NCBI GenBank assembly: GCA_902583345.1
Contig: CACHVT010000005.1
Coordinates: 1-52,482, forward strand
Direction of reading: 5' to 3'
DNA: 52,482 bases
From: an uncultured Pelagibacteraceae bacterium
Lineage (GTDB): Bacteria; Pseudomonadota; Alphaproteobacteria; Pelagibacterales; Pelagibacteraceae
The notes under the pieces are model-generated. The model was not told where the DNA came from, did no database searches, and saw only the letters and a program-made list of their open reading frames with translations. Of this stretch, positions 20,909-32,076 are shown piece by piece (within the stretch, counting starts at the first letter, position 1; every line of letters starts with the position of its first letter). The position numbers and the translations under genes are program-made.

Positions 20909-22033
20909 TTATTTCTTTAAAAAATTAAGTCTTCCAATTATCTCATCCCTATCAATATAATATCCTTGTAAATGTCTTTTTCCAGAATTTGGATCAAATT
21001 CTGTTCTACCGTGTAGAACTCTACGATTGTTAAAAGAATAAATATCTCCTGGTTCTAATCTAAATTTTATTTGAAATTTGTCGTCATGTAAAAGATTTCC
21101 AAACTCATGATGAGCAATATAAACTTTTTCCATAATATCTGGGTGGCAATCTAAAGTATCCATAGTGGCAACACTAAATCTTACATCATGAAAATCTCCG
21201 TCTTTTGTCAAACTTATTGCTGGTGCGTGAAAATCTCTATGGGATTGCTGAGTATAATCTTTATCTCTAAATTTTAAAGGAACCTTAACTAATATATCAA
21301 ATATTTCTTTTTTATTTTTTTTTAAATAGTTGGCCACAGCAAAAGCATCTACAGCTGATGAATTTCCTCCTTTGGCTGTATTTATTAAACAGTGCAAGAA
21401 CTGATACCCTGGAGGATTCTCAAACCATGGTAAATCCATATGATTTTTTAGTGAATGAGCTGTATAGGCTGAATTATTTGGTTTTGGTATATTAATCACC
21501 TCAAAAGGAGTTTTAAAAAATGTTTCTCTTGTATGACTTATTCTGTTTAAAACAGGAAATGCGGACTCTTTTTTTACAGGACTATTTTTAACTATAGCAA
21601 TACCTTTGTGATGCAAAAGTTCTAGCCATTTAATAAGACCTTCATTGGATGAAATTATTTCATCATGTTCAATACTTATGCTATTCATGTTTTCTTGAAG
21701 TTTGCAGTCCCATAGCTCATATGGTGAAATATATTTTTTTTTGCTTTTGATTGTATAGCAGTTTTTTCTAAGCCATTTTGTATCATAATAACTTGTGTGA
21801 TTTCCTTCACTCCATTCTATTTCTAATTTTCCATTTTCATTAACAATATATCTTTTTGGATTTATGTTTTTTGATACATTTAAAATGTTGAACATTCTAT
21901 GATTTGAATCTTTATCATGAGCAGATGGGCAATTATCTCTAAGCCACATATAGTTAAACATACTTTCCTCTCCATCATCCCAAAGTATTTTAAGGAACGT
22001 ACTATTTTTCTCTACCTTTGAAATTTCACTCAT
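20909..22033 (-). CDS. gamma-butyrobetaine-hydroxylase-like 2-oxoglutarate oxygenase (BBOX or TmpA type)
   Basis: 2-oxoglutarate/Fe(II) oxygenase with an N-terminal DUF971-like domain (about 1-95) and a TauD-type catalytic domain. Iron ligands are His198 and Asp200 (NHMDLPW) and His341 (VLHGRTEF), with Arg353 for oxoglutarate (GKRHLQGYY). BBOX makes carnitine from gamma-butyrobetaine; the related TmpA hydroxylates 2-(trimethylamino)ethylphosphonate. The zinc-binding C-x-C-x-x-C of human BBOX is reduced here to one Cys in WLRDNCPSAHD (Cys35), with a possible fourth ligand His79 retained. 374 residues fits. Monocistronic, divergent from the orphan proV, 69 bases apart. A PhnZ/TmpB-like oxygenase lies 5 kb away, which makes TmpA a live alternative. 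Confidence 0.85.
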   Translation of the reverse strand: MSEISKVEKNSTFLKILWDDGEESMFNYMWLRDNCPSAHDKDSNHRMFNILNVSKNINPKRYIVNENGKLEIEWSEGNHTSYYDTKWLRKNCYTIKSKKKYISPYELWDCKLQENMNSISIEHDEIISSNEGLIKWLELLHHKGIAIVKNSPVKKESAFPVLNRISHTRETFFKTPFEVINIPKPNNSAYTAHSLKNHMDLPWFENPPGYQFLHCLINTAKGGNSSAVDAFAVANYLKKNKKEIFDILVKVPLKFRDKDYTQQSHRDFHAPAISLTKDGDFHDVRFSVATMDTLDCHPDIMEKVYIAHHEFGNLLHDDKFQIKFRLEPGDIYSFNNRRVLHGRTEFDPNSGKRHLQGYYIDRDEIIGRLNFLKK

Positions 22034-22102
22034 AATTAGATATTTATTTAAAATAGATTAATTTGCAAGAACTACCATCTCCTGCTAAAAATATTGATAA
22101 AA

Positions 22103-23128
22103 ATGTCTAAAATAGAAATAAAAAACGTTTATAAAATTTTTGGACCTCAGCCTAATAAAGTTCTTTCAATGGTTAAAGAGGGCGCTAAAAAAGATGAAGT
22201 ATTAGAAAAAACTGGACACACAGTTGGTCTTGATAATGTATCGTTGACTATTCAAGAAGGTGAAACTTTTGTTTGCATGGGGCTATCTGGTTCAGGTAAA
22301 TCTACACTTATTCGCCATATAAACAGATTAATAGATCCAACATCAGGGGTAGTTTCTGTGGAAGGAACAAACGTTATGGATTTGGATCAAAAACAATTAA
22401 TTGAATTTAGAAGACATAAAATGAGTATGGTGTTCCAAAGATTTGGTTTGTTTCCACATAAAACAGTTTTAGAAAATGTTGGATATGGTCTTGAGGTCCA
22501 AGGTCAAAAACCAGATGAAAGAAATAAAACTGCAATGGAAAAAATTGAAGCAGTAGGTTTAAATGGTTTTGAACATCAATATCCAAATCAATTATCTGGA
22601 GGAATGCAACAACGAGTAGGTTTGGCAAGAGCATTGGCTACAAATACAGACATTATGTTAATGGATGAAGCATTCTCTGCACTAGACCCTTTAATACGAA
22701 GTGATATGCAAAAACAATTAATAGATTTACAAAGTGAATTAAAAAAAACAATAGTCTTTATAACTCATGATTTAGACGAGTCTTTAAGATTAGGCGATCA
22801 TATAGGTATATTAAATGGGGGTAGATTGGTTCAAGTTGGTACTCCTGTTGATATAATAATGAATCCAGCTGATGAATATGTTGCTGCCTTTGTAAAAGAT
22901 GTTAATAGAGCAAAAGTTATAAAAGCAAAAATAATTATGAAACCTATGAATGAGGTAAACGGTATTGACAAAAATAACGTTGTGAAAGTACAAGAAGACC
23001 AATTTATTGAAGAGTTTTTACCCAAAGTTGTTTGTAACAATGCCAACTGCGAAGTAATAGACAAGCAAGGTAATGTTAAAGGATACATAACGAATAAAGA
23101 ATTACAAAAATCTTTAACAAAGTCATAA
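22103..23128 (+). CDS. proV: glycine betaine/proline-type ABC ATPase (ProV/OpuAA), orphan
   Basis: The ATPase of a betaine-class importer. The ProV-specific N-terminal segment (VYKIFGPQPNKVLSMVKEG) precedes the core; Walker A is GLSGSGKST, signature LSGGMQQRVGLARAL, Walker B IMLMDEAFSALD, and the switch His in ITHDLDES. The C-terminal 75 residues form at most one degraded CBS domain (VIDKQGNVKGYITNKELQKSL), where full ProV has two. I choose ATG 22103; an in-frame TTG nine bases earlier is the alternative. No ProW permease or ProX binding protein is adjacent; an SDR gene follows 3 bases after its stop. The partner permease must be elsewhere in the genome. Confidence 0.9.
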   Translation: MSKIEIKNVYKIFGPQPNKVLSMVKEGAKKDEVLEKTGHTVGLDNVSLTIQEGETFVCMGLSGSGKSTLIRHINRLIDPTSGVVSVEGTNVMDLDQKQLIEFRRHKMSMVFQRFGLFPHKTVLENVGYGLEVQGQKPDERNKTAMEKIEAVGLNGFEHQYPNQLSGGMQQRVGLARALATNTDIMLMDEAFSALDPLIRSDMQKQLIDLQSELKKTIVFITHDLDESLRLGDHIGILNGGRLVQVGTPVDIIMNPADEYVAAFVKDVNRAKVIKAKIIMKPMNEVNGIDKNNVVKVQEDQFIEEFLPKVVCNNANCEVIDKQGNVKGYITNKELQKSLTKS

Positions 23129-23131
23129 TGA

Positions 23132-23920
23132 ATGACTATTCAGTCTTTAAAGAATAAAAAAATAATTATATCAGCCGGAGCATCAGGAATAGGATTAGCA
23201 ACTGCAAGAATTTGTCTATATCGGGGAGCTATTGTTTACCTTTGTGATATAAATAAAAAATTCTTAAATAAATTAAAAAAACATCCACTTAATAATAAAA
23301 GATTATTTATTTATGAGTGTGATACCTCAAATGAATATGATGTGTTAAATTTGTTTAATAGTATTAAAAAAAAAACAAAAAAGATTGACGCTTTAATAAA
23401 TAATGTAGGCGTAGCAGGCCCCACTTTAACTATCGAAAAAATTAAGTCAAAGGATTGGGAAAGAACAATTAAAATAAATGTTACAAGTCATTTTTATTTT
23501 ACAAAATTTGCGATACCAATGTTAAAAAAAAATAAGGGTGGCAGTATTATTAATCTTTCTTCAGGCGCGGGTATCATGGGTTTTCCCTTAAGATCTCCTT
23601 ACGCCGCTAGTAAATGGGCAGTGATCGGTATGACAAAAACTTTAGCTATGGAACTTGGTAAATTTAAAATTCGAGTTAATGCTATATGTCCTGGAACAAT
23701 TAAAGGAGATAGAATGATAAGAGTGATTAGAGATAAAGCAAATTTTTTGAATATTTCAAAAAAAAAAGTGGAAAAAGAATTTGTTTCTATGGCCTCTATG
23801 AATTGTTGGATTTATGAAGATGATATTGGAAAAACATGTTGCTTCTTAATTTCTCAAGATGGTGAAAGAATTTCTGGACAAACGATAGCAGTTGATGGAA
23901 ACGCTATTAGATTAGATTAA
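23132..23920 (+). CDS. SDR-family oxidoreductase (candidate carnitine-type dehydrogenase)
   Basis: Classical short-chain dehydrogenase with the NAD-binding GASGIGLATA motif near the N-terminus, NNVGVAG, the catalytic Ser in NLSSGAG and YAASK for Tyr and Lys, then CPGTIKGDRM. 262 residues is normal. It starts 3 bases after proV and converges with the BKACE gene 3 bases from its stop. Because the BKACE product is of dehydrocarnitine type and no HAD-type carnitine dehydrogenase (CdhA) is in the window, this SDR is a candidate for the 3-hydroxy oxidation step, perhaps for D-carnitine. That role is inference only. Confidence 0.85.
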   Translation: MTIQSLKNKKIIISAGASGIGLATARICLYRGAIVYLCDINKKFLNKLKKHPLNNKRLFIYECDTSNEYDVLNLFNSIKKKTKKIDALINNVGVAGPTLTIEKIKSKDWERTIKINVTSHFYFTKFAIPMLKKNKGGSIINLSSGAGIMGFPLRSPYAASKWAVIGMTKTLAMELGKFKIRVNAICPGTIKGDRMIRVIRDKANFLNISKKKVEKEFVSMASMNCWIYEDDIGKTCCFLISQDGERISGQTIAVDGNAIRLD

Positions 23921-23923
23921 TTT

Positions 23924-24811
23924 TTATTTATAATTTTTTAATTTAAGCTTTTCTCTTGTTTCTGCTGGAGTCATTATTGTAACACCAAGATCATTTACAA
24001 TTCTAATAGCTTTTTCTACTAATTGGGGATTTGTTGCTAACTTTCCTTTTTCTAAATATAAATTATCTTCTAGACCAACTCTTGGATTTCCTCCCATAAT
24101 TACTGTCTGTGCAACAAATGGCATCTCGTTTTTTGATATTGCAAAGCCAGACCATATTCCTTCTTTGGGCATTATATCTTTCATAGCTTGCATAGCTAAT
24201 GGTGTAGCAGGAGCCCCCCAAGGAATTCCTAAACACATTTGAAACATAGGTGGATCACTTAGTAATCCTTCTTTATATAATTGAGCACCAAACCACATAT
24301 TTCCTAGATCAAAAGCCTCTATCTCGGGCTTCACATTTATTTCTTGTAATCTTTTTGCAGCTTTCCTTAAATCATTTGGTGTATTAACAGTAATCACAGA
24401 ACTATCTCCAAAATTTAAAGTTCCACAATCTAAAGTGCAAATTTCTGGAAGAAACTGTTCGGCGTTTGCTATTCTCTCCATAACGTTTGCCATATCAGTC
24501 ATCGGTCCAAATTCTAAAGGGTTTTTTCCTTGTCCTATATCTAGGTCTCCCCCCATACCAGTTGTTAAGTTTAAAACTACGTCAGTATCACTTGATCTTA
24601 TACGATCTACCACCTCTTTATATAATTCCAATCTTCTGCTAGGTGTTCCGTCTTCCTCTCTAACATGAATATGTGCTATTGCTGCGCCAGCTTTAGCAGA
24701 TTCTATAGCAGCATTAGCAATTTGTTCAGGAGTCTTTGGTAAATCTGGATGTTTTCCCGCAGTATCACCTGAACCTGTTACCGCACAAGATATAAATACC
24801 TTATTGTTCAT
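23924..24811 (-). CDS. BKACE-family beta-keto acid cleavage enzyme (dehydrocarnitine type)
   Basis: Zinc enzyme of the DUF849 family: a beta-keto acid plus acetyl-CoA gives acetoacetate and a new acyl-CoA. Metal-binding His47 and His49 (AHIHVREEDG) and Glu248 (RVGLEDN) are present. The blocks GTDVVLNLTTGMGGDLDIG-type, LPEICTLDCGTLNFGD (121-136) and LGIPWGAPA (194-202) match the Pseudomonas CdhC dehydrocarnitine-cleaving enzyme as I remember it, in which 3-dehydrocarnitine yields betainyl-CoA. A CdhB-like thioesterase gene lies close by on the opposite strand, supporting carnitine breakdown to glycine betaine. The start is 35 bases from the divergent aldolase gene. Confidence 0.88.
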   Translation of the reverse strand: MNNKVFISCAVTGSGDTAGKHPDLPKTPEQIANAAIESAKAGAAIAHIHVREEDGTPSRRLELYKEVVDRIRSSDTDVVLNLTTGMGGDLDIGQGKNPLEFGPMTDMANVMERIANAEQFLPEICTLDCGTLNFGDSSVITVNTPNDLRKAAKRLQEINVKPEIEAFDLGNMWFGAQLYKEGLLSDPPMFQMCLGIPWGAPATPLAMQAMKDIMPKEGIWSGFAISKNEMPFVAQTVIMGGNPRVGLEDNLYLEKGKLATNPQLVEKAIRIVNDLGVTIMTPAETREKLKLKNYK

Positions 24812-24846: not shown

Positions 24847-25575
24847 ATGGAAATAACTGATTTACAAAAAGATCTAGCAGCTACTTTTAGATGGACAGCC
24901 AGATTAAATATGAATGAGGCTGTTGCTAATCATTTTAGCGCATGTATTCCAGGTTCTAGTACAAATTTTTACGTTAATAAATCTGGAATACATTTTAGCC
25001 AAATGAAAGCTAGTGATTTAATTTTAGTAACAAAAGATAATATTGATGAATTAAAAAAGAAGCCTGAAATTGTTGATTCTACGGCAATAAATATACACGG
25101 AAATATTCATAAAAAAGTTCCTCACGCAAAATGTATATTTCATGTTCATTCAAAATACGCAACAGCACTTTCTACTTTAAAAGACCCAACTCTTCCACCA
25201 ATAGACCAAAATACAATGCGGTTTTACAATAGAGTCTCTCTGTATAACGAATATGGTGGCATGGGTTTTGAGGAAGAGTCATTAAAAATGGCAACAGCAT
25301 TAGGAAATAAACAAAATTTGTTAATGGCAAACCATGGAATTTTAACAACTGGTGAAACAGTATCAGATGGCTTTGATGCTTTATACTATTTTGAAAAATC
25401 TGCCGAAACTTATATAACAGCCCTTTCAACTGGTAAGGAATTAAATATAGCTTCTCACGAAGTGGCAGAAAAAACAGCTCAAGAATGGGCAAACTATCCC
25501 TCAGATCTTGGAAGAGCTCATTTAGATCAAATAAGATTAATTTTAGACAAAGAAGAACCGGAATACAAAAGTTAA
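24847..25575 (+). CDS. class II aldolase/adducin-family protein
   Basis: Zn-dependent aldolase fold (fuculose-phosphate aldolase class; includes lyases and decarboxylases). The zinc histidines are visible in CIFHVHSKYATALS (HVH) and MANHGILTTG, and the N-terminal NHFSACIPG replaces the usual 'GNxSxR' phosphate-binding loop, hinting that the substrate is not a simple sugar phosphate. 242 residues fits. First gene of a tight five-gene operon, one base before the thioesterase gene. Its role with thioesterase and oxygenase genes is unknown. Confidence 0.85.
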   Translation: MEITDLQKDLAATFRWTARLNMNEAVANHFSACIPGSSTNFYVNKSGIHFSQMKASDLILVTKDNIDELKKKPEIVDSTAINIHGNIHKKVPHAKCIFHVHSKYATALSTLKDPTLPPIDQNTMRFYNRVSLYNEYGGMGFEEESLKMATALGNKQNLLMANHGILTTGETVSDGFDALYYFEKSAETYITALSTGKELNIASHEVAEKTAQEWANYPSDLGRAHLDQIRLILDKEEPEYKS

Positions 25576-25576
25576 A

Positions 25577-26047
25577 ATGAGTATTTTTTTATCAAAGCAA
25601 AAAGTTATTAAAGATTGGACCGATTATAACGGTCACATGAATGTTGCTTATTATGTACTAATTTTTGATATTTATGGAGCAGAAATTTTAATGAATAAAT
25701 TTAATATGGGTGAGCAATCAGCAAAAACTACAAAAAAAAGTACTATGGTAGTAGAATCTCATATTACATATAATCAAGAAGTTACTGAGGGTGAAGAAGT
25801 GGATGTTAATTTAGTGTACTTCGACCACGATAAAAAAAGACTTTTATACAAAATGGAAATGGTACACAAAGAAAAAAAATATGTAGCATCAACTATAGAA
25901 GTTCTTTCATTATATGTAGATTTGGGACAAAGAAAGGTTTCTGAATTTGAAAATGAAAAAGTAAAGATCATGGAAGAATTTATAATGAAAAATAAGTCTA
26001 CTTTTAATTCTGAGGATTTAAAATTTTATAATAAACTTAAAAAATAA
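25577..26047 (+). CDS. 4HBT hot-dog thioesterase, betainyl-CoA thioesterase (CdhB)-like
   Basis: Hot-dog-fold acyl-CoA thioesterase. The catalytic motif DWTDYNGHMNVAYYV (residues 13-27, Asp16) matches the D-x-x-G-H-x-N of the 4HBT family, and the segment KKRLLYKMEMVHKEKKYVAST fits the remainder. The same N-terminal W-x-D-Y-N-G-H-M-N-x-x-Y-Y form occurs in CdhB, which hydrolyses betainyl-CoA to glycine betaine in carnitine degradation. With the BKACE gene about 0.8 kb away, the same reaction is the best guess. It sits one base after the aldolase gene and three before the TauD gene. Confidence 0.82.
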   Translation: MSIFLSKQKVIKDWTDYNGHMNVAYYVLIFDIYGAEILMNKFNMGEQSAKTTKKSTMVVESHITYNQEVTEGEEVDVNLVYFDHDKKRLLYKMEMVHKEKKYVASTIEVLSLYVDLGQRKVSEFENEKVKIMEEFIMKNKSTFNSEDLKFYNKLKK

Positions 26048-26050
26048 ATT

Positions 26051-26878
26051 ATGCAAATAAAATTATTATCTGGAGCCCTTGGAGCTGAGGTAAATGGAAT
26101 AGATCTTAAAAACTCATCAAATGAAAATTGTTTAAAGATAAATAAATTATTACTTGAAAACAAAGTTTTATTTTTTAGAGATCAGAATATTTCGCCAGAG
26201 GAGCAAATTAATTTAGCTAAATTTTTTGGGCCATTAGAAAGACATATTTACGTAAAAGGTAGAGATAAATACCCTGAAATTGTAAGAATTATAAAGGGAC
26301 CAAATGAAAAACACCAATGGGGAGAAACATGGCACACAGATGTGAGTTACAATATTAAACCAACTAAAGTTATAATTTTAAGATCAGTAAAAATACCTCC
26401 TGTTGGAGGAGATACAATGTTTTCAAATATGGAAGTTGCTTATGAGACCCTAGATAAAAAAATAAAGGAAAAAATAAAAAATAAAAAAGCAATTCATAGT
26501 TCATTGGGTGCAGCTGCATTTGTCGAAAAATACGAAGAAATGGAGGGAAATGGAAATCTTGATGAATATTCAAATGAACATCCTGTTGTAAGAACTCATC
26601 CTGAAACAGGAAAAAAAATCTTGTATGTAAATTCAATGTATACAAAAAAAATTTTAGATATGGATAAAAATGAAAGTGAAGATATTTTAAAAGAAATTTT
26701 TCTTCATCAAGAAAGATTAGATTTTACATGTAGATTTAAATGGACAGAGAATGCTGTAGCTATATGGGACAACAGAAGCACACAACATCAAGGCTTAACT
26801 GATTTTTTTCCTGGAAGAGGATTAGGTTTTGAGAGGATAATGGACCGGGTTGCTATTGAAGGGGACAAGCCTAATTAA
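26051..26878 (+). CDS. TauD/TfdA-family 2-oxoglutarate dioxygenase
   Basis: Fe(II)/2-oxoglutarate oxygenase. Iron ligands His95 and Asp97 (TWHTDVSY) and His246 (STQHQGL), oxoglutarate-binding Arg262/Arg266 (FERIMDR). 275 residues equals TauD. Members hydroxylate sulfonates, herbicides, trimethylamine compounds and others, so the substrate is open. It is six bases upstream of a PhnZ/TmpB-like HD oxygenase, the arrangement of a two-step 'hydroxylate next to the heteroatom, then oxidatively cleave' pathway, as in PhnY-PhnZ, although PhnY itself belongs to another oxygenase family (PhyH). Confidence 0.9.
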   Translation: MQIKLLSGALGAEVNGIDLKNSSNENCLKINKLLLENKVLFFRDQNISPEEQINLAKFFGPLERHIYVKGRDKYPEIVRIIKGPNEKHQWGETWHTDVSYNIKPTKVIILRSVKIPPVGGDTMFSNMEVAYETLDKKIKEKIKNKKAIHSSLGAAAFVEKYEEMEGNGNLDEYSNEHPVVRTHPETGKKILYVNSMYTKKILDMDKNESEDILKEIFLHQERLDFTCRFKWTENAVAIWDNRSTQHQGLTDFFPGRGLGFERIMDRVAIEGDKPN

Positions 26879-26884
26879 AAATTA

Positions 26885-27421
26885 ATGAACGTAATATATA
26901 AAATTATTTCTAATTTTATAAACAATAAATCATTATATATGGGAGAAAAAGTAACAATGTCGGAGCACATGATTCAATCTGCTATGCTGGCTGAAAAAGC
27001 AAAATCAAATAAGAGCTTAGTTTGTGCTTGTTTACTTCATGATTATGGTCATTTTATTTTAGATGAGCCAAATGATTTAGTCATAAAAAAACTAGACGGT
27101 AAACATGAAGAAATTGGTTATCAATATTTACAAAAATTTTTTAAAAAAGAAGTAGTTGAACCAATAAAACATCATGTAAAAGCAAAAAGATATCTTGTAA
27201 GAGATAAAAAATATTATAGTCAGCTTTCTAAAGCATCCATTTTAAGTCTTAAACTCCAAGGTGGTATATTAAGTAGCAAAGAATCAAGAGTATTTGAAAA
27301 AGAAGAGTTTTTTAAAGATGCTATAAAACTAAGAAAGTTTGACGATGCTGCAAAAAATATAGGCGTCAAAATAAAAGATATCATTCGGTATAAAGATTTA
27401 TTAAAAGTATTTTTAAAATGA
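26885..27421 (+). CDS. PhnZ/TmpB-like HD-domain mixed-valence diiron oxygenase
   Basis: HD-fold oxygenase that in PhnZ cleaves the C-P bond of an alpha-hydroxyphosphonate with O2. Every active-site residue known in PhnZ has a counterpart at matching spacing: Tyr18 and Glu21 (LYMGE, PhnZ Tyr24/Glu27), iron ligands His28, His52-Asp53 (LLHDYGHF), His74 (KHEEIG), His97 (KHHVKAKRYL) and Asp153 (KFDD). The C-terminal block SKASILSLKLQGG and RVFEKEEFFKDAIKLR is also PhnZ-like. 178 residues versus about 190. TmpB, acting on (R)-1-hydroxy-2-(trimethylammonio)ethylphosphonate to give glycine betaine and phosphate, is the relative that best fits this neighbourhood. It overlaps the GMC gene by four bases (ATGA). 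Confidence 0.85.
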   Translation: MNVIYKIISNFINNKSLYMGEKVTMSEHMIQSAMLAEKAKSNKSLVCACLLHDYGHFILDEPNDLVIKKLDGKHEEIGYQYLQKFFKKEVVEPIKHHVKAKRYLVRDKKYYSQLSKASILSLKLQGGILSSKESRVFEKEEFFKDAIKLRKFDDAAKNIGVKIKDIIRYKDLLKVFLK

Positions 27422-28998
27422 ATTATGATTATTTAATTGTTGGCGCTGGATCAGCAGGTTGCGTTCTTGGAAATAGACTATCTGAAAATAGTAATCATAA
27501 AGTTGCAATTTTCGAAGCTGGTGGAACAAGTGATATTTGGAAAGTTAAAATGCCTCTTGCTCTTCTCTACACGATGCATGATCCAAAATATAATTGGAAG
27601 TATTATTCAGAACCTGAGCCATACTTAAATAATAGACGAATATTCTGCCCAAGAGGAAAAATGATTGGTGGATGTTCATCTCATAATGGAATGGTTTTTG
27701 TAAGGGGAAATAGAGATGATTATACTAGGTGGGAAAGATTTGGACTTAAAAATTGGTCCTATGAAAAAGTATTACCTTATTTTAAAAAAATTGAAACTTG
27801 GTCAGAAGGAGAAAATCAATTTAGAGGTTCTTTGGGTCCTCTTCCAATTAGTTTGTCAAAAAATTCTAATCCATTGTTTAAAGCTTTTATTAATGCTGCT
27901 GGTGAGGCTGGACATAGAATTAACATTGATATGAATGGTGAAGAACAAGAGGGATTTGGAATGTTTGATACAACTATGCATAAAGGAGAAAGAGCAGGAG
28001 TTTCAAAATATTATCTAGATCCAATTAAAAATAGAAAAAATCTTGATATTTTAAAAAACTCATATGTGGAAAAAATTTTATTCGATGGAAAAAAAGCAGT
28101 AGGTCTTCAGGTTAAAATCAAAAATAAAACTGAAAAAATTTATGCAAATAAAGAAGTCATTTTAAGTGGTGGTTCAATAAATTCACCACAATTATTGATG
28201 CTATCAGGGATTGGAGATTCAAATCATTTGAAAGATAAAGGAATAAATGTTGTTAATGATGTTAAAGGTGTAGGTAAAAATTTGCAAGATCACTTAGAGA
28301 TATATATCCAACAAGAATGCAAAACTCCTAATACTTTATATACTTACACAAAACTTGTTCCTAAAGTTTTAGCAGGAATACAATGGTTTATGTTTAAATC
28401 TGGACCATGCTCTAAATCTTTTTTAGAAGCAGGTGGATTTGCAAAATCCTCACCTGAAAGAGAAATCTCAAATATTCAATTTCATTTCTTTCCATCATTT
28501 GTAATTAATCATGGTTTAGAGCAACCAAAAACCCACGGTTATCAATTGCATGCTAGCCCAAATCATCCAAGAAGCAGGGGAAATATTACTCTCAGTTCGT
28601 CTGATCCTTATGAATATCCAAAAATATTATTTAATTATCTGCAAGATGAAGAAGATCTAAAGCAAACAAGAGAATGTATTCACGTTGCGAGAAAAATTTT
28701 ATCTCAACCAGCTTTAAATGAGCATGCTGGAAAAGAAATTGGACCTGGAATGGACTCTCAATCAGATGAAGAATTAAATGAATATATTAAATCAAAAGCT
28801 GATACCGCTTATCATCCATGTGGTACTTGTAAGATGGGAGTAGATCATATGGCAGTAGTCGATGAAAATTTAAAAGTAAAAGGAATTCAAAACTTAAGAG
28901 TTATTGATGCTTCAGTAATACCCGAAATACCAAGTGCAAATTTAAATGCTCCAACTTTAATGATTGCTGAAAAAGGTGCTGACTTAATATTAAATTAA
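27418..28998 (+). CDS. GMC-family FAD oxidoreductase (choline-dehydrogenase-like)
   Basis: Flavoprotein alcohol dehydrogenase of the glucose-methanol-choline family. FAD-binding GAGSAGCVLG at residues 9-18, GMC signature RGKMIGGCSSHNGMVFVRG in the first hundred residues, second signature GSINSPQLLMLSGIG, and the catalytic His in YHPCGTCKMG near the end. 526 residues fits BetA-like enzymes. The second catalytic His/Asn near the C-terminus lies in SANLNAPTLM. Substrate is an alcohol; choline is possible but many SAR11-type GMC proteins are uncharacterised. Last gene of the five-gene operon; it overlaps the convergent ATPase gene by four bases. Confidence 0.9.
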   Translation: MNYDYLIVGAGSAGCVLGNRLSENSNHKVAIFEAGGTSDIWKVKMPLALLYTMHDPKYNWKYYSEPEPYLNNRRIFCPRGKMIGGCSSHNGMVFVRGNRDDYTRWERFGLKNWSYEKVLPYFKKIETWSEGENQFRGSLGPLPISLSKNSNPLFKAFINAAGEAGHRINIDMNGEEQEGFGMFDTTMHKGERAGVSKYYLDPIKNRKNLDILKNSYVEKILFDGKKAVGLQVKIKNKTEKIYANKEVILSGGSINSPQLLMLSGIGDSNHLKDKGINVVNDVKGVGKNLQDHLEIYIQQECKTPNTLYTYTKLVPKVLAGIQWFMFKSGPCSKSFLEAGGFAKSSPEREISNIQFHFFPSFVINHGLEQPKTHGYQLHASPNHPRSRGNITLSSSDPYEYPKILFNYLQDEEDLKQTRECIHVARKILSQPALNEHAGKEIGPGMDSQSDEELNEYIKSKADTAYHPCGTCKMGVDHMAVVDENLKVKGIQNLRVIDASVIPEIPSANLNAPTLMIAEKGADLILN

Positions 28999-29786
28999 TT
29001 AGCATCAAGAACAGCATGTAAAAATTGTTTTGTTCTTTCATTTTGTGGATCTCCAAATAATTTTTCGGGCGGACCTTGCTCAAAAATTTTACCATCATTA
29101 AAAAAACAAACTCTATCAGATATTTCTCTAGCAAAACCCATTTGATGAGTAACCATTATCATAGTTAAATTATGTTCTTTGTTAAGTGATCTAATTACAT
29201 TTAAAACTTCACCAACTACCTCAGGATCCAATGCTGATGTAATTTCGTCTAAAAGCATAACCTTAGGTCTCATTGCTAGGGCTCTTGCAATCGCTACTCT
29301 TTGTTGTTGTCCTCCAGACAATCTTGATGGATGTTGATCTTTTTTATCTGTTAAACCAACTAATTCTAACAATTCAAGCGCTCTTTGTTCTGCTTCTTCC
29401 TTTTTCATACCTAACACTTCTATAGGTGCCTCGATGCAATTTTGAAGTGCTGTCATATGAGGAAATAGATTAAATTGTTGAAAGACCATTCCTATTTTTG
29501 AACGTCTTTCTCTTAAATATTTTTCGCTTGCTTCAACTAATTTTCCATCAGAGCTCATATGAGTTAATGACTCGCCATCTAAATGGATAACACCTCCATT
29601 AATTTTCTCTAAAGTCATTAAAACTCTTAATACAGTAGTTTTTCCTGATCCCGATGGACCAATGATTGATACCATCTCATTTTTTTTAATATCTAAATTA
29701 AGTTTATCTAAAACTACAAGGTCGCCGTATTGTTTTGTTACTTCCTCAAATTTTACTATTGTTTCTTCAGATTTTTTATTTTCCAT
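28995..29786 (-). CDS. polar-amino-acid/ectoine-type ABC ATPase (EhuA/GlnQ-like)
   Basis: Cytoplasmic ATPase of a polar-amino-acid importer. Walker A GPSGSGKTT, LSGGQQQRVAIARAL, Walker B VMLLDEITSALDPE and the switch VTHQMGFARE; the DEITSALDPE and THQMGFAR strings are typical of GlnQ/HisP-class ATPases. It is the last gene of the four-gene minus-strand operon, 12 bases after the permease gene. Substrate is set by the Ehu-like binding protein upstream. Confidence 0.93.
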   Translation of the reverse strand: MENKKSEETIVKFEEVTKQYGDLVVLDKLNLDIKKNEMVSIIGPSGSGKTTVLRVLMTLEKINGGVIHLDGESLTHMSSDGKLVEASEKYLRERRSKIGMVFQQFNLFPHMTALQNCIEAPIEVLGMKKEEAEQRALELLELVGLTDKKDQHPSRLSGGQQQRVAIARALAMRPKVMLLDEITSALDPEVVGEVLNVIRSLNKEHNLTMIMVTHQMGFAREISDRVCFFNDGKIFEQGPPEKLFGDPQNERTKQFLHAVLDAN

Positions 29787-29798
29787 AATTTAAATTCT

Positions 29799-30476
29799 TT
29801 ATTGTTTCATTTTTCCTTGAGCAACATTAACTTTTCTCTCTAACTTTCTAACCCACATAGCTGCTGGAACAGAAAGAATTAAGAATATTATACCAACCAT
29901 TGTGTAGGGTTCCAAATATCTATAATTATATCCCCCAACTGCTGTTGCTGCGTGAAATAACTCAGCCACACCTATTGTTGACAAAAGTGGAGTATCTTTA
30001 AAAATACCAACTAAATAATTTCCCATACCTGGAATCGCTATGGGAAAAGCCTGAGGTAAAACTATTCTTCTATAAGTATAAACTGTGGAAAAATTTAGAG
30101 CTCTACATGCTTCCCATTGAGTTTTTGAAACCCCTTCTAAAGCTCCTCTATAAACTTCTGAAAGATAAGTTCCAAAATGTAAACCAATTGTTATCATTCC
30201 ACAAACCCATGCTGATAATTTTATGCCAAACTGAGGCAAAACAAAATATACAAAAAATAACTGTATCAATAATGGTGTTGAGCGAATAAATTCTACGATT
30301 TCTCTATTAATTCCATTTATAATTTTTGACGGAGTTCTTTGACCTAATAAAAAAAAGAGTCCAACAATAAGTGCTATTGCATACCCTACTCCCGCTGCAA
30401 TAATAGTATTTAAAGTTGCCCATAACATTTGAGGTAAAATTTCATAAGCAAAATCCCATCTAAATCCCATTTCCAT
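29799..30476 (-). CDS. polar-amino-acid/ectoine-type ABC permease (EhuD-like)
   Basis: Inner-membrane permease of the His/Glu/Gln class, 225 residues with about five TM segments. The segment STPLLIQLFFVYFVLPQFGIKLSA and the docking loop KTQWEACRALNFSTVYTYRRIVLPQAFPI are family hallmarks. The opening WDFAYEILPQMLWATLNT recalls EhuD. It pairs with the EhuC-like permease upstream (four bases between). Confidence 0.9.
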   Translation of the reverse strand: MEMGFRWDFAYEILPQMLWATLNTIIAAGVGYAIALIVGLFFLLGQRTPSKIINGINREIVEFIRSTPLLIQLFFVYFVLPQFGIKLSAWVCGMITIGLHFGTYLSEVYRGALEGVSKTQWEACRALNFSTVYTYRRIVLPQAFPIAIPGMGNYLVGIFKDTPLLSTIGVAELFHAATAVGGYNYRYLEPYTMVGIIFLILSVPAAMWVRKLERKVNVAQGKMKQ

Positions 30477-30480
30477 AATA

Positions 30481-31152
30481 TTAAACGTTTCCTCTCCCGA
30501 CCTTTTTGGCAGCTAAAACTTCCAACCATCTTAAAAATGGAACAAGCGCTAACCTAGCCATGATATAATAAATTAATAAAGCTGTTCCAAAACATTGCGC
30601 GGAAAGCCAAGTAATAGAATTAATTTGTTTTGCTTCAAAAGTTAAATCAACAACTGTTACAAGGGCTACTAAAGCAGTTGCTTTTAAAAGTTCTACGGTC
30701 AAATTTGCTGCTGGAGGCAAAATTATAGGAAATATTTGTGGAATTATTATTCTTTTAATTCTTTTTGCAGGACTAAAATTAAGTGCATGAGCAGCTTCCC
30801 ATTGGCCCTTAGGTACTGCTAATATTCCACCTCTTACAATCTCTGCACCATATGCACCAAAGTTCAAACCTAAGGCAACTACTCCTGCAACAAATGCTTC
30901 TAATGAAATTCCGAAAAATGGTAGTACGTAATATACCCAAAAAAGTTGAACTAATAATGAGGTACCTCTAAAAAATTCTATATATACAGTTGCAATTCCT
31001 TGAATAATTAGATTTTTAGATAAACGCATCAAACCGAAAATCATTGAAATAATTACATACAAAACCATAGAACATATCAAAACTTTTACAGTAGTGACCG
31101 TTCCTAGAAGCAATGTCATTCCATGTTCAGCTAAAAATGCAAAGTAGCTCAA
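30481..31152 (-). CDS. polar-amino-acid/ectoine-type ABC permease (EhuC-like)
   Basis: Partner permease of 223 residues. FRGTSLLVQLFWVYYVLPFFGI and the docking loop KGQWEAAHALNFSPAKRIKRIIIPQ follow the pattern of EhuC, where the 'GTS-x-LVQLFW' segment is common. It is separated from the binding-protein gene by a 78-base gap containing a strong terminator-like hairpin, so it would be transcribed only by read-through. Confidence 0.88.
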   Translation of the reverse strand: MSYFAFLAEHGMTLLLGTVTTVKVLICSMVLYVIISMIFGLMRLSKNLIIQGIATVYIEFFRGTSLLVQLFWVYYVLPFFGISLEAFVAGVVALGLNFGAYGAEIVRGGILAVPKGQWEAAHALNFSPAKRIKRIIIPQIFPIILPPAANLTVELLKATALVALVTVVDLTFEAKQINSITWLSAQCFGTALLIYYIMARLALVPFLRWLEVLAAKKVGRGNV

Positions 31153-31179
31153 TGTATTACCATAAATTAAGTTAAAAAA

Positions 31180-31212
31180 AATCAGGCGACTTTATTATTT
31201 GGTCGCCTGATT
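31180..31212 (-). terminator. terminator-like hairpin between binding-protein and permease genes
   Basis: AATCAGGCGAC (31180-31190) pairs with GTCGCCTGATT (31202-31212), an 11-bp perfect stem with an 11-base loop. On the minus strand it is followed by seven U. Same architecture as the hairpin at 14890-14915. Confidence 0.88.
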
Positions 31213-31230
31213 AATAATTAAATTTTAATA

Positions 31231-32076
31231 CTACTTAGTTGAGCAAGCCCACTCTGTAGTCATGTCTGCGGGTGGAAGTTGAGCTTTGTCATAACCATAC
31301 TCACCAGCTCTTTCCAACATTTTTTCAGGATTAGCTAAAACTTTAGCTAAAGCAGCATTGAATGCTTCTCTAAATTCATTATCGCTTTTTCTAAAACCAA
31401 TTCCAACAACATTTACAGTTTCTTTTGGCATAAGCTTAGGATCGGTTACTTCAAATGCACCGCCAGTTTTTTCTTCATGCTCTTTTGCACCAAAAAACGT
31501 TTGAACTGCCGCATCAGCTCTTCCTGCTTTCATAGCAGCAAGTATTCCTACTTCACCTTCTACTAATAACATTTGGCTATCAGGTACACCAAATTTTTTA
31601 GCAGCTTCTACAGTATTGAAACCTGTACCAGTTACAAGTGTCGCTCCTGTTCTGATAACGTCAGCATAGTTATTAATTCCTTTAGGATTCCCTTTAGGAA
31701 CTAACATTGCATCACCAAAAACTCCTATTGGATCTGAAAAGTTAATGTTTTCACATCTGCTTTTCAAGATATACATGCCTCCTGTTATCATATCAGAACG
31801 ATCTGCATTTATTCCTGGAATTAGTCCAGACCATTCGAAAACTTTAGTTTCATGCTCTGTAATTCCCATTTCTTCTAAAACTGTTAAAGCAATCATGTTA
31901 ACAAAACCTAATGCTTCACCATTATCTCCGGCGTAAGCCCATGGCACCGCTGTACCAAAACCTAATCTTAATTTATGTCCGTCAGCTAGTCTTTGTGTTA
32001 GTGTCGCTGCACTTACAGAAGATACACTAAAAAGAATAACAAGAAGTACTGTTATTGATTTAATATACTTTCTCAT
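31231..32076 (-). CDS. periplasmic binding protein, EhuB-like (ectoine/hydroxyectoine or polar amino acid)
   Basis: Signal peptide residues 1-23 (SITVLLVILFSVSSVSA). The mature protein is an SBP family 3 fold: LRLGFGTAVPWAYAG, SGLIPGINADRSDMITGGMYILKSRCENINFSDP, and GRADAAVQTFF. The 'GMYIL-x-x-R-C' and 'GLIPG-x' patterns are those I associate with EhuB, the ectoine binding protein, more than with HisJ/GlnH. The DoeA/EutD- and EutA-like genes elsewhere in the window would fit ectoine, but they travel with a different importer. AGGGGGA (complement of 32082-32088) is a strong Shine-Dalgarno. Confidence 0.88.
   Translation of the reverse strand: MRKYIKSITVLLVILFSVSSVSAATLTQRLADGHKLRLGFGTAVPWAYAGDNGEALGFVNMIALTVLEEMGITEHETKVFEWSGLIPGINADRSDMITGGMYILKSRCENINFSDPIGVFGDAMLVPKGNPKGINNYADVIRTGATLVTGTGFNTVEAAKKFGVPDSQMLLVEGEVGILAAMKAGRADAAVQTFFGAKEHEEKTGGAFEVTDPKLMPKETVNVVGIGFRKSDNEFREAFNAALAKVLANPEKMLERAGEYGYDKAQLPPADMTTEWACSTK

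Follow-up and report, generated by a model that had tools for sequence, protein, structure and literature searches.

The window analyzed here is the 52,482-nucleotide contig CACHVT010000005.1 (contig C5) of assembly GCA_902583345.1, read on the forward strand. The source genome, that of an uncultured Pelagibacteraceae (SAR11) relative, comprises 1.13 Mb in 47 contigs, is 87% complete, and has a G+C content of 30%. Between positions 24847 and 28998, five genes follow one another on the forward strand with gaps of 1, 3, 6, and -4 bases, an order and spacing that a sequence-only reading of the window had given correctly when it proposed a single five-gene operon. The genes encode a class II aldolase/adducin-family protein (ALDO; 24847 to 25575; PF00596; 312 bits against PRK07490, with a cutoff of 260), a 4HBT_2 thioesterase (THIO; 25577 to 26047; PF13279), a TauD-type Fe/2-oxoglutarate (2OG) oxygenase of 275 amino acids (26051 to 26878; PF02668; 189 bits), an HD-domain oxygenase of the PhnZ/TmpB type (HD; 26885 to 27421; PF01966), and a GMC oxidoreductase (27418 to 28998), which overlaps the HD gene by 4 bases. 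The GMC protein meets the cutoff of the choline-dehydrogenase subfamily model PRK02106 (725.7 bits; cutoff of 605) and falls below that of the betA equivalog (659.9 versus 732.1 bits). The HD gene, whose product is 93% identical to a protein in Pelagibacteraceae record L072, is the core of the present finding, together with its place in a glycine betaine island of SAR11.

Gene order was compared across 102 loci (80 and 21 from two scans, plus the window), which were gathered by searching with HD and include some contigs twice (e.g., L051 and L074). In all 102, the HD gene is followed by the GMC gene with a 4-base overlap, which places the arrangement far beyond chance, and HD-GMC is the truly fixed pair of the operon. 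The nearest same-strand gene 5' of HD is TauD in 99 loci, THIO in 2, and a contig edge in 1; the TauD-HD gap measures 0 to 9 bases in 98 loci and -50 in 1. THIO is found in 90 of 101 loci, with other genes in its position in 7 and a contig edge in 4. ALDO is sporadic and was rejected as a core member because it is present in only 9 of 101 loci. In six loci, the TauD-HD-GMC trio lies after formate-dehydrogenase-like genes, and THIO and BKACE can be absent; in L110, the trio follows unrelated genes, and in other loci, THIO-TauD-HD-GMC follows a ParA-like gene (the formate-dehydrogenase-like and ParA-like neighbors were named by eye).

Most neighbors of the HD gene belong to a glycine betaine genomic island published for Arctic SAR11, where it is described in half of 16 genomes (PMC12421898); in 18 earlier single-contig SAR11 genomes, its authors found no comparable gene order. 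That island is listed as BBOX, an ABC transporter, ADH, CDH, BKACE, class II aldolase, thioesterase, SMR, a second BBOX, choline dehydrogenase, and DMT (PMC12421898). Most of the neighborhood found here is covered by this list, whose order matches, and the second BBOX probably occupies the place held here by TauD. No HD gene is in the list, and the main text of that paper contains neither "phosphonate" nor "TauD". The sequence-only reading had known of no described operon with this gene set; most of the set, minus HD, is thus already published. The island arrangement recurs here in single-cell and metagenome-assembled genomes named Pelagibacteraceae. Literature searches on SAR11 with TmpB or PhnZ, on SAR11 with TauD and carnitine, and on TmpB with TauD, which covered few subscription journals, did not find the combination.

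The HD-domain oxygenase and its relatives

The assignment of HD to the PhnZ/TmpB oxygenases was borne out by sequence, structure model, and tree. In a phmmer search of the PDB, HD matched TmpB of Leisingera caerulea, which works with TmpA (6npa; 106 bits; 39% identity over the TmpB fragment), and PhnZ of the uncultured bacterium HF130_AEPn_1, which works with PhnY* (4mlm, 4mln, 4n6w, and 4n71; 92 to 93 bits), and nothing else up to an E value of 1. The AlphaFold2 model of HD (pLDDT of 89) gave fold Z scores of 25.0 against TmpB, 24.6 against PhnZ, and 10.4 against MIOX, so that the TmpB and PhnZ matches appear tied in the predicted structure and far above that of MIOX. The PhnZ active-site residues that the earlier reading had listed (Tyr18, Glu21, His28, His52-Asp53, His74, His97, and Asp153) are all present and are invariant in an 11-row alignment, where they correspond to the YxxE loop and the H...HD...H...H...D ligands of PhnZ and TmpB. 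The YxxE loop is the mark that separates PhnZ and TmpB from MIOX (PMC8177086). The fold, the YxxE loop, and the iron ligands all place HD among the PhnZ/TmpB-type oxygenases, and MIOX-like C-C cleavage was ruled out as a first choice by the PhnZ/TmpB-like active-site residues and fold.

An HD relative (E value of 1e-10 or better) was found in 64 of 297 genomes of the order. Clade A (HD-A) comprises 31 genomes, including that of the window; clade B comprises 14 genomes of the same genus, with 43 to 46% identity to HD-A; and clade C comprises 20 genomes of a second family, with 36 to 43% identity. Genome G221 carries both A and B. In a tree of 60 HD proteins, for which 13 HD-A sequences and selected members of the other groups were used, HD-A forms one starred clade (100/100) at the end of a long branch (1.68 changes per column) and joins PhnZ and TmpB with moderate support (83/84, and 67 under a simpler model), with a warning from the tool that long branches meet; HD-A therefore did not cluster outside the PhnZ/TmpB group, the outcome that the sequence-only reading had named as fatal to its proposal.

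Within the 13 HD-A rows, Y18, E21, and the metal ligands are invariant and common with PhnZ and TmpB, as are A100, K101, R102, Y103, S115, S118, Q125, G126, G127, R150, and K157. M25 (Ile in 5 of the 13), M29, and F57 are shared with the TmpB clade but differ from PhnZ, clade B, and most others; T24 is also TmpB-like but less specific. PhnZ has N, Q, S, and Y at positions 24, 25, 29, and 57, where HD has T, M, M, and F. M25, M29, and F57 sit beside the YxxE loop and the metal ligands and, judged from these positions, may line the amine pocket. HD-A scores 155 bits with the TmpB model and 129 with the PhnZ1 model (cutoff of 300), and the lean is reversed in one clade B protein (137 versus 160), two clade C proteins (152 versus 188 and 133 versus 147), and one Dietzia protein (142 versus 203). 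This score ratio, together with M25, M29, and F57, suggests that HD-A leans to TmpB over PhnZ1. The likeness to the TmpB system extends to the quaternary-amine setting and to glycine betaine as the likely product; unlike in that system, no TmpA gene adjoins HD, TauD stands there instead, and a GMC gene follows.

The surroundings of the other clades differ from those of HD-A. Clade B genes adjoin PhnC/D/E-like genes (L031, by eye), and all 10 clade B loci show an identical pattern of gene sizes (L031 to L039 being similar). PhnJ was detected in 5 of 56 genomes tested, all 5 of which carry clade B. The clade B gene of G221 (L281:3551-4102) lies in a full C-P lyase neighborhood, flanked by phnCDE-, phnG-N-, and PhnX-like genes with a PhyH-like gene nearby (labels by eye except for PhnJ, which was assigned with Pfam), and the one clade B protein tested leans to the PhnZ1 (hydroxymethylphosphonate) model. 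Of three clade C loci viewed by eye, two carry PhnX-like genes, accompanied by PhnC/D/E-like genes in L045 and by PhnW-like genes in L048; none of these is present in L040. The scan of genome contigs returned the best 80 of 225 HD relatives, and a scan of viral contigs with HD found no relative. On a Nostoc plasmid (L225:4989-5549), a C-P lyase operon has an HD oxygenase gene in its middle, with a phnM-like gene on one side and phnJ on the other. In Asticcacaulis (L227:4968-5549) and in L197 to L200, the partner of the HD relative is a TIGR03364-type FAD oxidoreductase, annotated as such in L227 and labeled by similarity in the others, in place of a 2OG oxygenase.

TauD and other candidate hydroxylases

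Elsewhere, a TmpA-type hydroxylase gene lies directly 5' of HD in 14 of 29 genome loci (L172 to L200) and 4 of 8 plasmid loci, often with a 4-base overlap; these neighbors make hydroxylase-HD pairing a usual design and TauD in that place unusual. The TauD protein of the window is 33% identical to Escherichia coli TauD and scores below the PRK09553 cutoff (216.6 versus 313 bits). The metal-, 2OG-, and sulfonate-binding residues are kept, with H70, H99, D101, T126, H255, R266, and R270 (E. coli numbering) present in 23 of 23 orthologues, the window included. D94 and N95 of the E. coli enzyme hold the taurine amine (PMC9304159), whereas the corresponding positions are W and G in the 23 orthologues (D94 being W90 here) and Tyr73 of the same pocket is replaced by Val. 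The Trp is found in 86 of 86 HD-linked TauDs, 13 of 13 HD-less ones, all 9 rows listed among 14 further Pelagibacterales TauDs, and 1 of 29 more distant relatives (L267). The structure model of TauD, with a pLDDT of 58, was too poor for use. A frame break divides TauD into two parts in L052 (8382-9210) and L076, where HD and GMC are intact.

A second candidate hydroxylase of the window is a gamma-butyrobetaine hydroxylase-like 2OG oxygenase (BBH; 20909 to 22033, reverse strand; 313 bits against TIGR02409, with a cutoff of 415), whose gene lies about 5 kb from HD. It reaches 265 bits with the TmpA model, below the cutoff of 400. TmpA holds the phosphonate by Asn187, Asn287, and Arg288 (PMC9296572); plasmid TmpA proteins read RFNNR where BBH reads RFSVA, and BBH was rejected as a TmpA because it has no equivalents of Asn287 and Arg288. 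From its sequence, BBH looks like a BBOX-type enzyme.

Proposed function of HD-A and its alternatives

We propose that HD-A is an optional TmpB-like C-P oxygenase in the SAR11 betaine island, turning a trimethylammonium phosphonate into glycine betaine and phosphate, a proposal that we regard as evenly poised between right and wrong. The island itself would convert gamma-butyrobetaine and carnitine (through BBH, carnitine dehydrogenase, BKACE, and the thioesterase) and choline (through GMC) to glycine betaine, and its genes support the quaternary-amine surroundings that the sequence-only reading had suggested. HD would be an add-on to it, a mixed-valent diiron oxygenase that cuts the C-P bond of an alpha-hydroxyphosphonate, the likeliest substrate being (R)-1-hydroxy-2-(trimethylammonio)ethylphosphonate. 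TauD would be the likeliest, though not the exclusive, supplier of the alpha-hydroxyl group, since the TauD reaction on sulfonates hydroxylates the adjacent carbon, which corresponds to the position at issue in the phosphonate; in genomes without HD, it perhaps acts on a quaternary sulfonate, for example taurine betaine. A broader claim, to which we give only tentative credence, is that this constitutes a new oxidative phosphonate pathway of SAR11, in which a TauD-family enzyme and not TmpA or PhnY hydroxylates quaternary-amine phosphonates, perhaps also sulfonates, next to the acid group, with an optional TmpB-like partner, and that the island is a switchable phosphorus source that phosphonate surveys miscount or miss.

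Several findings weigh against the proposed C-P oxygenase. HD falls below the cutoff of the curated TmpB model NF049941 (155.3 versus 300 bits), whereas a control HD protein, whose gene follows a TmpA gene on a plasmid of Phyllobacterium, exceeds it with 357.6 bits, its partner passing the TmpA model with 596.4. HD also falls below the TIGR03276 cutoff (170.2 versus 214.6 bits), which is not decisive because the Phyllobacterium TmpB, having passed its own model, misses TIGR03276 as well (197.3 bits). Position 99, Ala in PhnZ and TmpB, is Leu, Lys, or Ile in HD-A. In approximately unbiased (AU) tests on the tree, which carries the long-branch warning, rival sister groupings of HD-A with TmpB (P = 0.302), with PhnZ (P = 0.137), and with clade B (P = 0.235) were all retained. 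The uptake route is the weakest point. No phosphonate transporter lies within the operon; PhnJ was found in a single HD-A genome out of 31, which carries clade B as well, and in 4 of the 25 other genomes tested; and PhnD-type binding-protein matches above 100 bits were found in 4 of 31 HD-A genomes and 4 of 25 others. Because PhnJ and PhnD are so scarce, uptake would need a quaternary-amine transporter or one of an unknown kind. A Pho-box pattern modeled on the E. coli consensus gave two weak matches, where chance alone would give 3.4, and neither lies in or near the operon; promoter-like sites were no more frequent than in shuffled sequences.

The tie between TauD and HD is also looser than the adjacency in the HD-gathered loci suggests. 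Among 79 GMC-bearing genomes of the family, 25 have both HD-A and TauD, 6 have HD-A only, 31 have TauD but no HD-A, and 17 have neither (Fisher P = 0.139). Of these 31, out of 56 TauD-bearing genomes in all, 10 carry a clade B gene elsewhere and the other 21 lack both kinds of HD. In 20 HD-less loci, drawn from the 48 GMC-bearing genomes of the family without HD-A, the gene before GMC is TauD in 13, THIO in 3, DMT in 1, and unrelated in 3; seven further HD-less TauD-GMC loci (L208 to L210 and L216 to L219) were chosen for their TauD and lie outside this count. The 13 HD-less TauDs show two active-site signatures only, both of which are also seen in HD-linked TauDs. Conversely, the 6 HD-A genomes without TauD all have the order CitE-like-THIO-HD-GMC (L068, L070, and L211 to L214). 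At least 6 switches in HD presence are needed on a TauD tree of 113 rows; because the tree was a quick one and its sequences were gathered mainly via HD, this figure is a lower limit for those sequences. H70 and R270 were rejected as evidence for a phosphonate substrate because they are too widespread, being kept in 22 and 28, respectively, of 29 more distant TauD relatives. A fixed TauD-HD pair was rejected on account of the HD-less TauD-GMC loci, the TauD-less HD genomes, and the changes on the TauD tree. HD thus comes and goes independently of TauD, so that TauD must have a function of its own and HD can work in its absence; of the TauD-then-HD pathway put forward by the sequence-only reading, the adjacency stands but a dedicated pairing is weakened. 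In the six TauD-less genomes, the lyase is CitE/RipC-like, and a carnitine-dehydrogenase-like gene is near in five, the L211 locus starting too late to show it. In the second family (f2), TauD lies apart from HD in the six loci examined, and in a sample of the phylum compared by coordinates only, no TauD-HD neighbors were found outside Pelagibacterales, TauD matches (E value of 1e-45 or better) being on other contigs or far off.

Under one alternative, TauD and HD act on separate compounds and are neighbors only because both feed glycine betaine: TauD would desulfonate a quaternary sulfonate (e.g., taurine betaine), and HD would take an alpha-hydroxyphosphonate that is ready-made or made by BBH. 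We hold both the division of substrates and this explanation of the neighborhood to be doubtful. The independent gain and loss of the two genes agrees with it, as does the presence of BBH in 30 of 31 HD-A genomes, the 6 without TauD among them; however, HD-less GMC genomes carry BBH just as often (46 of 48; Fisher P = 1.0), its missing Asn287/Arg288 equivalents make it a poor candidate for a phosphonate hydroxylase, and the literature searched yielded no paper on taurine betaine with TauD. At the opposite pole, TauD and HD would be a dedicated tandem for 2-(trimethylammonio)ethylphosphonate, an analogue of TmpAB in which TauD has replaced TmpA. The tight TauD-HD junctions in 99 of 102 loci, the frequency of hydroxylase-HD pairing elsewhere, and the Trp in place of the amine-pocket Asp all fit such a tandem, which we nevertheless think rather unlikely, since the 102 loci were themselves gathered by HD search, and the HD-less TauD-GMC loci, the TauD-less HD-A genomes, the repeated changes on the TauD tree, and the shared pocket signatures all speak against it.

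Two further alternatives concern HD-A itself. It is unlikely, in our estimate, that HD-A acts on 1-hydroxy-2-aminoethylphosphonate in the manner of PhnZ or on hydroxymethylphosphonate in the manner of PhnZ1, its place in the betaine island being incidental. A grouping of HD-A with PhnZ is among those retained by the AU test, the YxxE loop serves the free amine of PhnZ too (PMC8177086), and some substrate tolerance is described for PhnZ (PMC10574752), but model scores favor TmpB over PhnZ1, the loop-adjacent residues are TmpB-like, and the same genus has a separate clade B HD in a C-P lyase cluster. That HD-A has left C-P chemistry altogether and cuts another C-X bond, in a hydroxylated quaternary amine made in the island, would account for the lack of a phosphonate transporter or C-P lyase in most HD-A genomes, the long HD-A branch, and the departure at position 99; it is very unlikely, however, in view of the invariance in HD-A of the other tabulated active-site residues common to PhnZ and TmpB.

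SAR11 bacteria rank among the most abundant marine cells. In one survey, Pelagibacterales account for 45% of marine phnZ sequences, and phnZ is taken to denote the use of 2-aminoethylphosphonate (PMC9381506). Another survey notes that phnZ splits into subclades with different substrates (PMC8316502). In addition, glycine betaine relieves the glycine auxotrophy of SAR11 (PMC12478193). If HD-A acts on a trimethylammonium phosphonate, part of the phnZ counts may reflect another substrate and product, glycine betaine would reach SAR11 together with phosphate, and nitrogen-rich osmolytes would be linked to phosphorus supply in many ocean SAR11.

Neighboring genes and transporters

The genes upstream of the operon match the island. 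BKACE (23924 to 24811; PF05853; 309 bits), a frequent neighbor, is divergently oriented on the reverse strand, and its context suggests a role in dehydrocarnitine cleavage. Beyond it, on the forward strand, are an SDR dehydrogenase of the island in a recurrent position (23132 to 23920; PF13561/PF00106) and a betaine/choline-type ABC transporter ATPase of the ProV/ChoV family (22094 to 23128), which passes the TIGR01186 cutoff (367 versus 326.6 bits). In the region 20909 to 23128, this ChoV-type ATPase stands without ChoX and ChoW in both the window and its closest relative, L072; both genes precede it in most relatives. THIO has as its sole NCBIfam match, at an E value of 0.001, the C-terminal part of the carnitine 3-dehydrogenase PRK07531 (residues 345 to 473; 54.8 bits, the cutoff of 592 applying to the whole fused enzyme); this similarity and the adjacency of BKACE make it a candidate betainyl-CoA thioesterase.

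One of the four PhnD-type matches in HD-A genomes is that of the window's own genome, in a region of cell-surface genes on contig C1 (L280:5190-8840), where a PhnDCE-like transporter adjoins a protein with helix-turn-helix (HTH) and nucleotidyltransferase parts and cell-surface sugar genes. This region possibly serves phosphonate or phosphocholine decoration; PepM was not recognized by eye in the adjoining 19.5 kb of C1, where the first 70 residues of each open reading frame were viewed. Downstream of the operon, an ectoine-type transporter (28995 to 32076) lies convergently on the opposite strand and overlaps GMC by 4 bases; its EhuA-type ATPase is over the model cutoff, and ehuD-, ehuC-, and ehuB-like genes were named by eye. 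The genome also carries two S-methyl_trans genes (PF02574; Bhmt-type family), whose products could use betaine.

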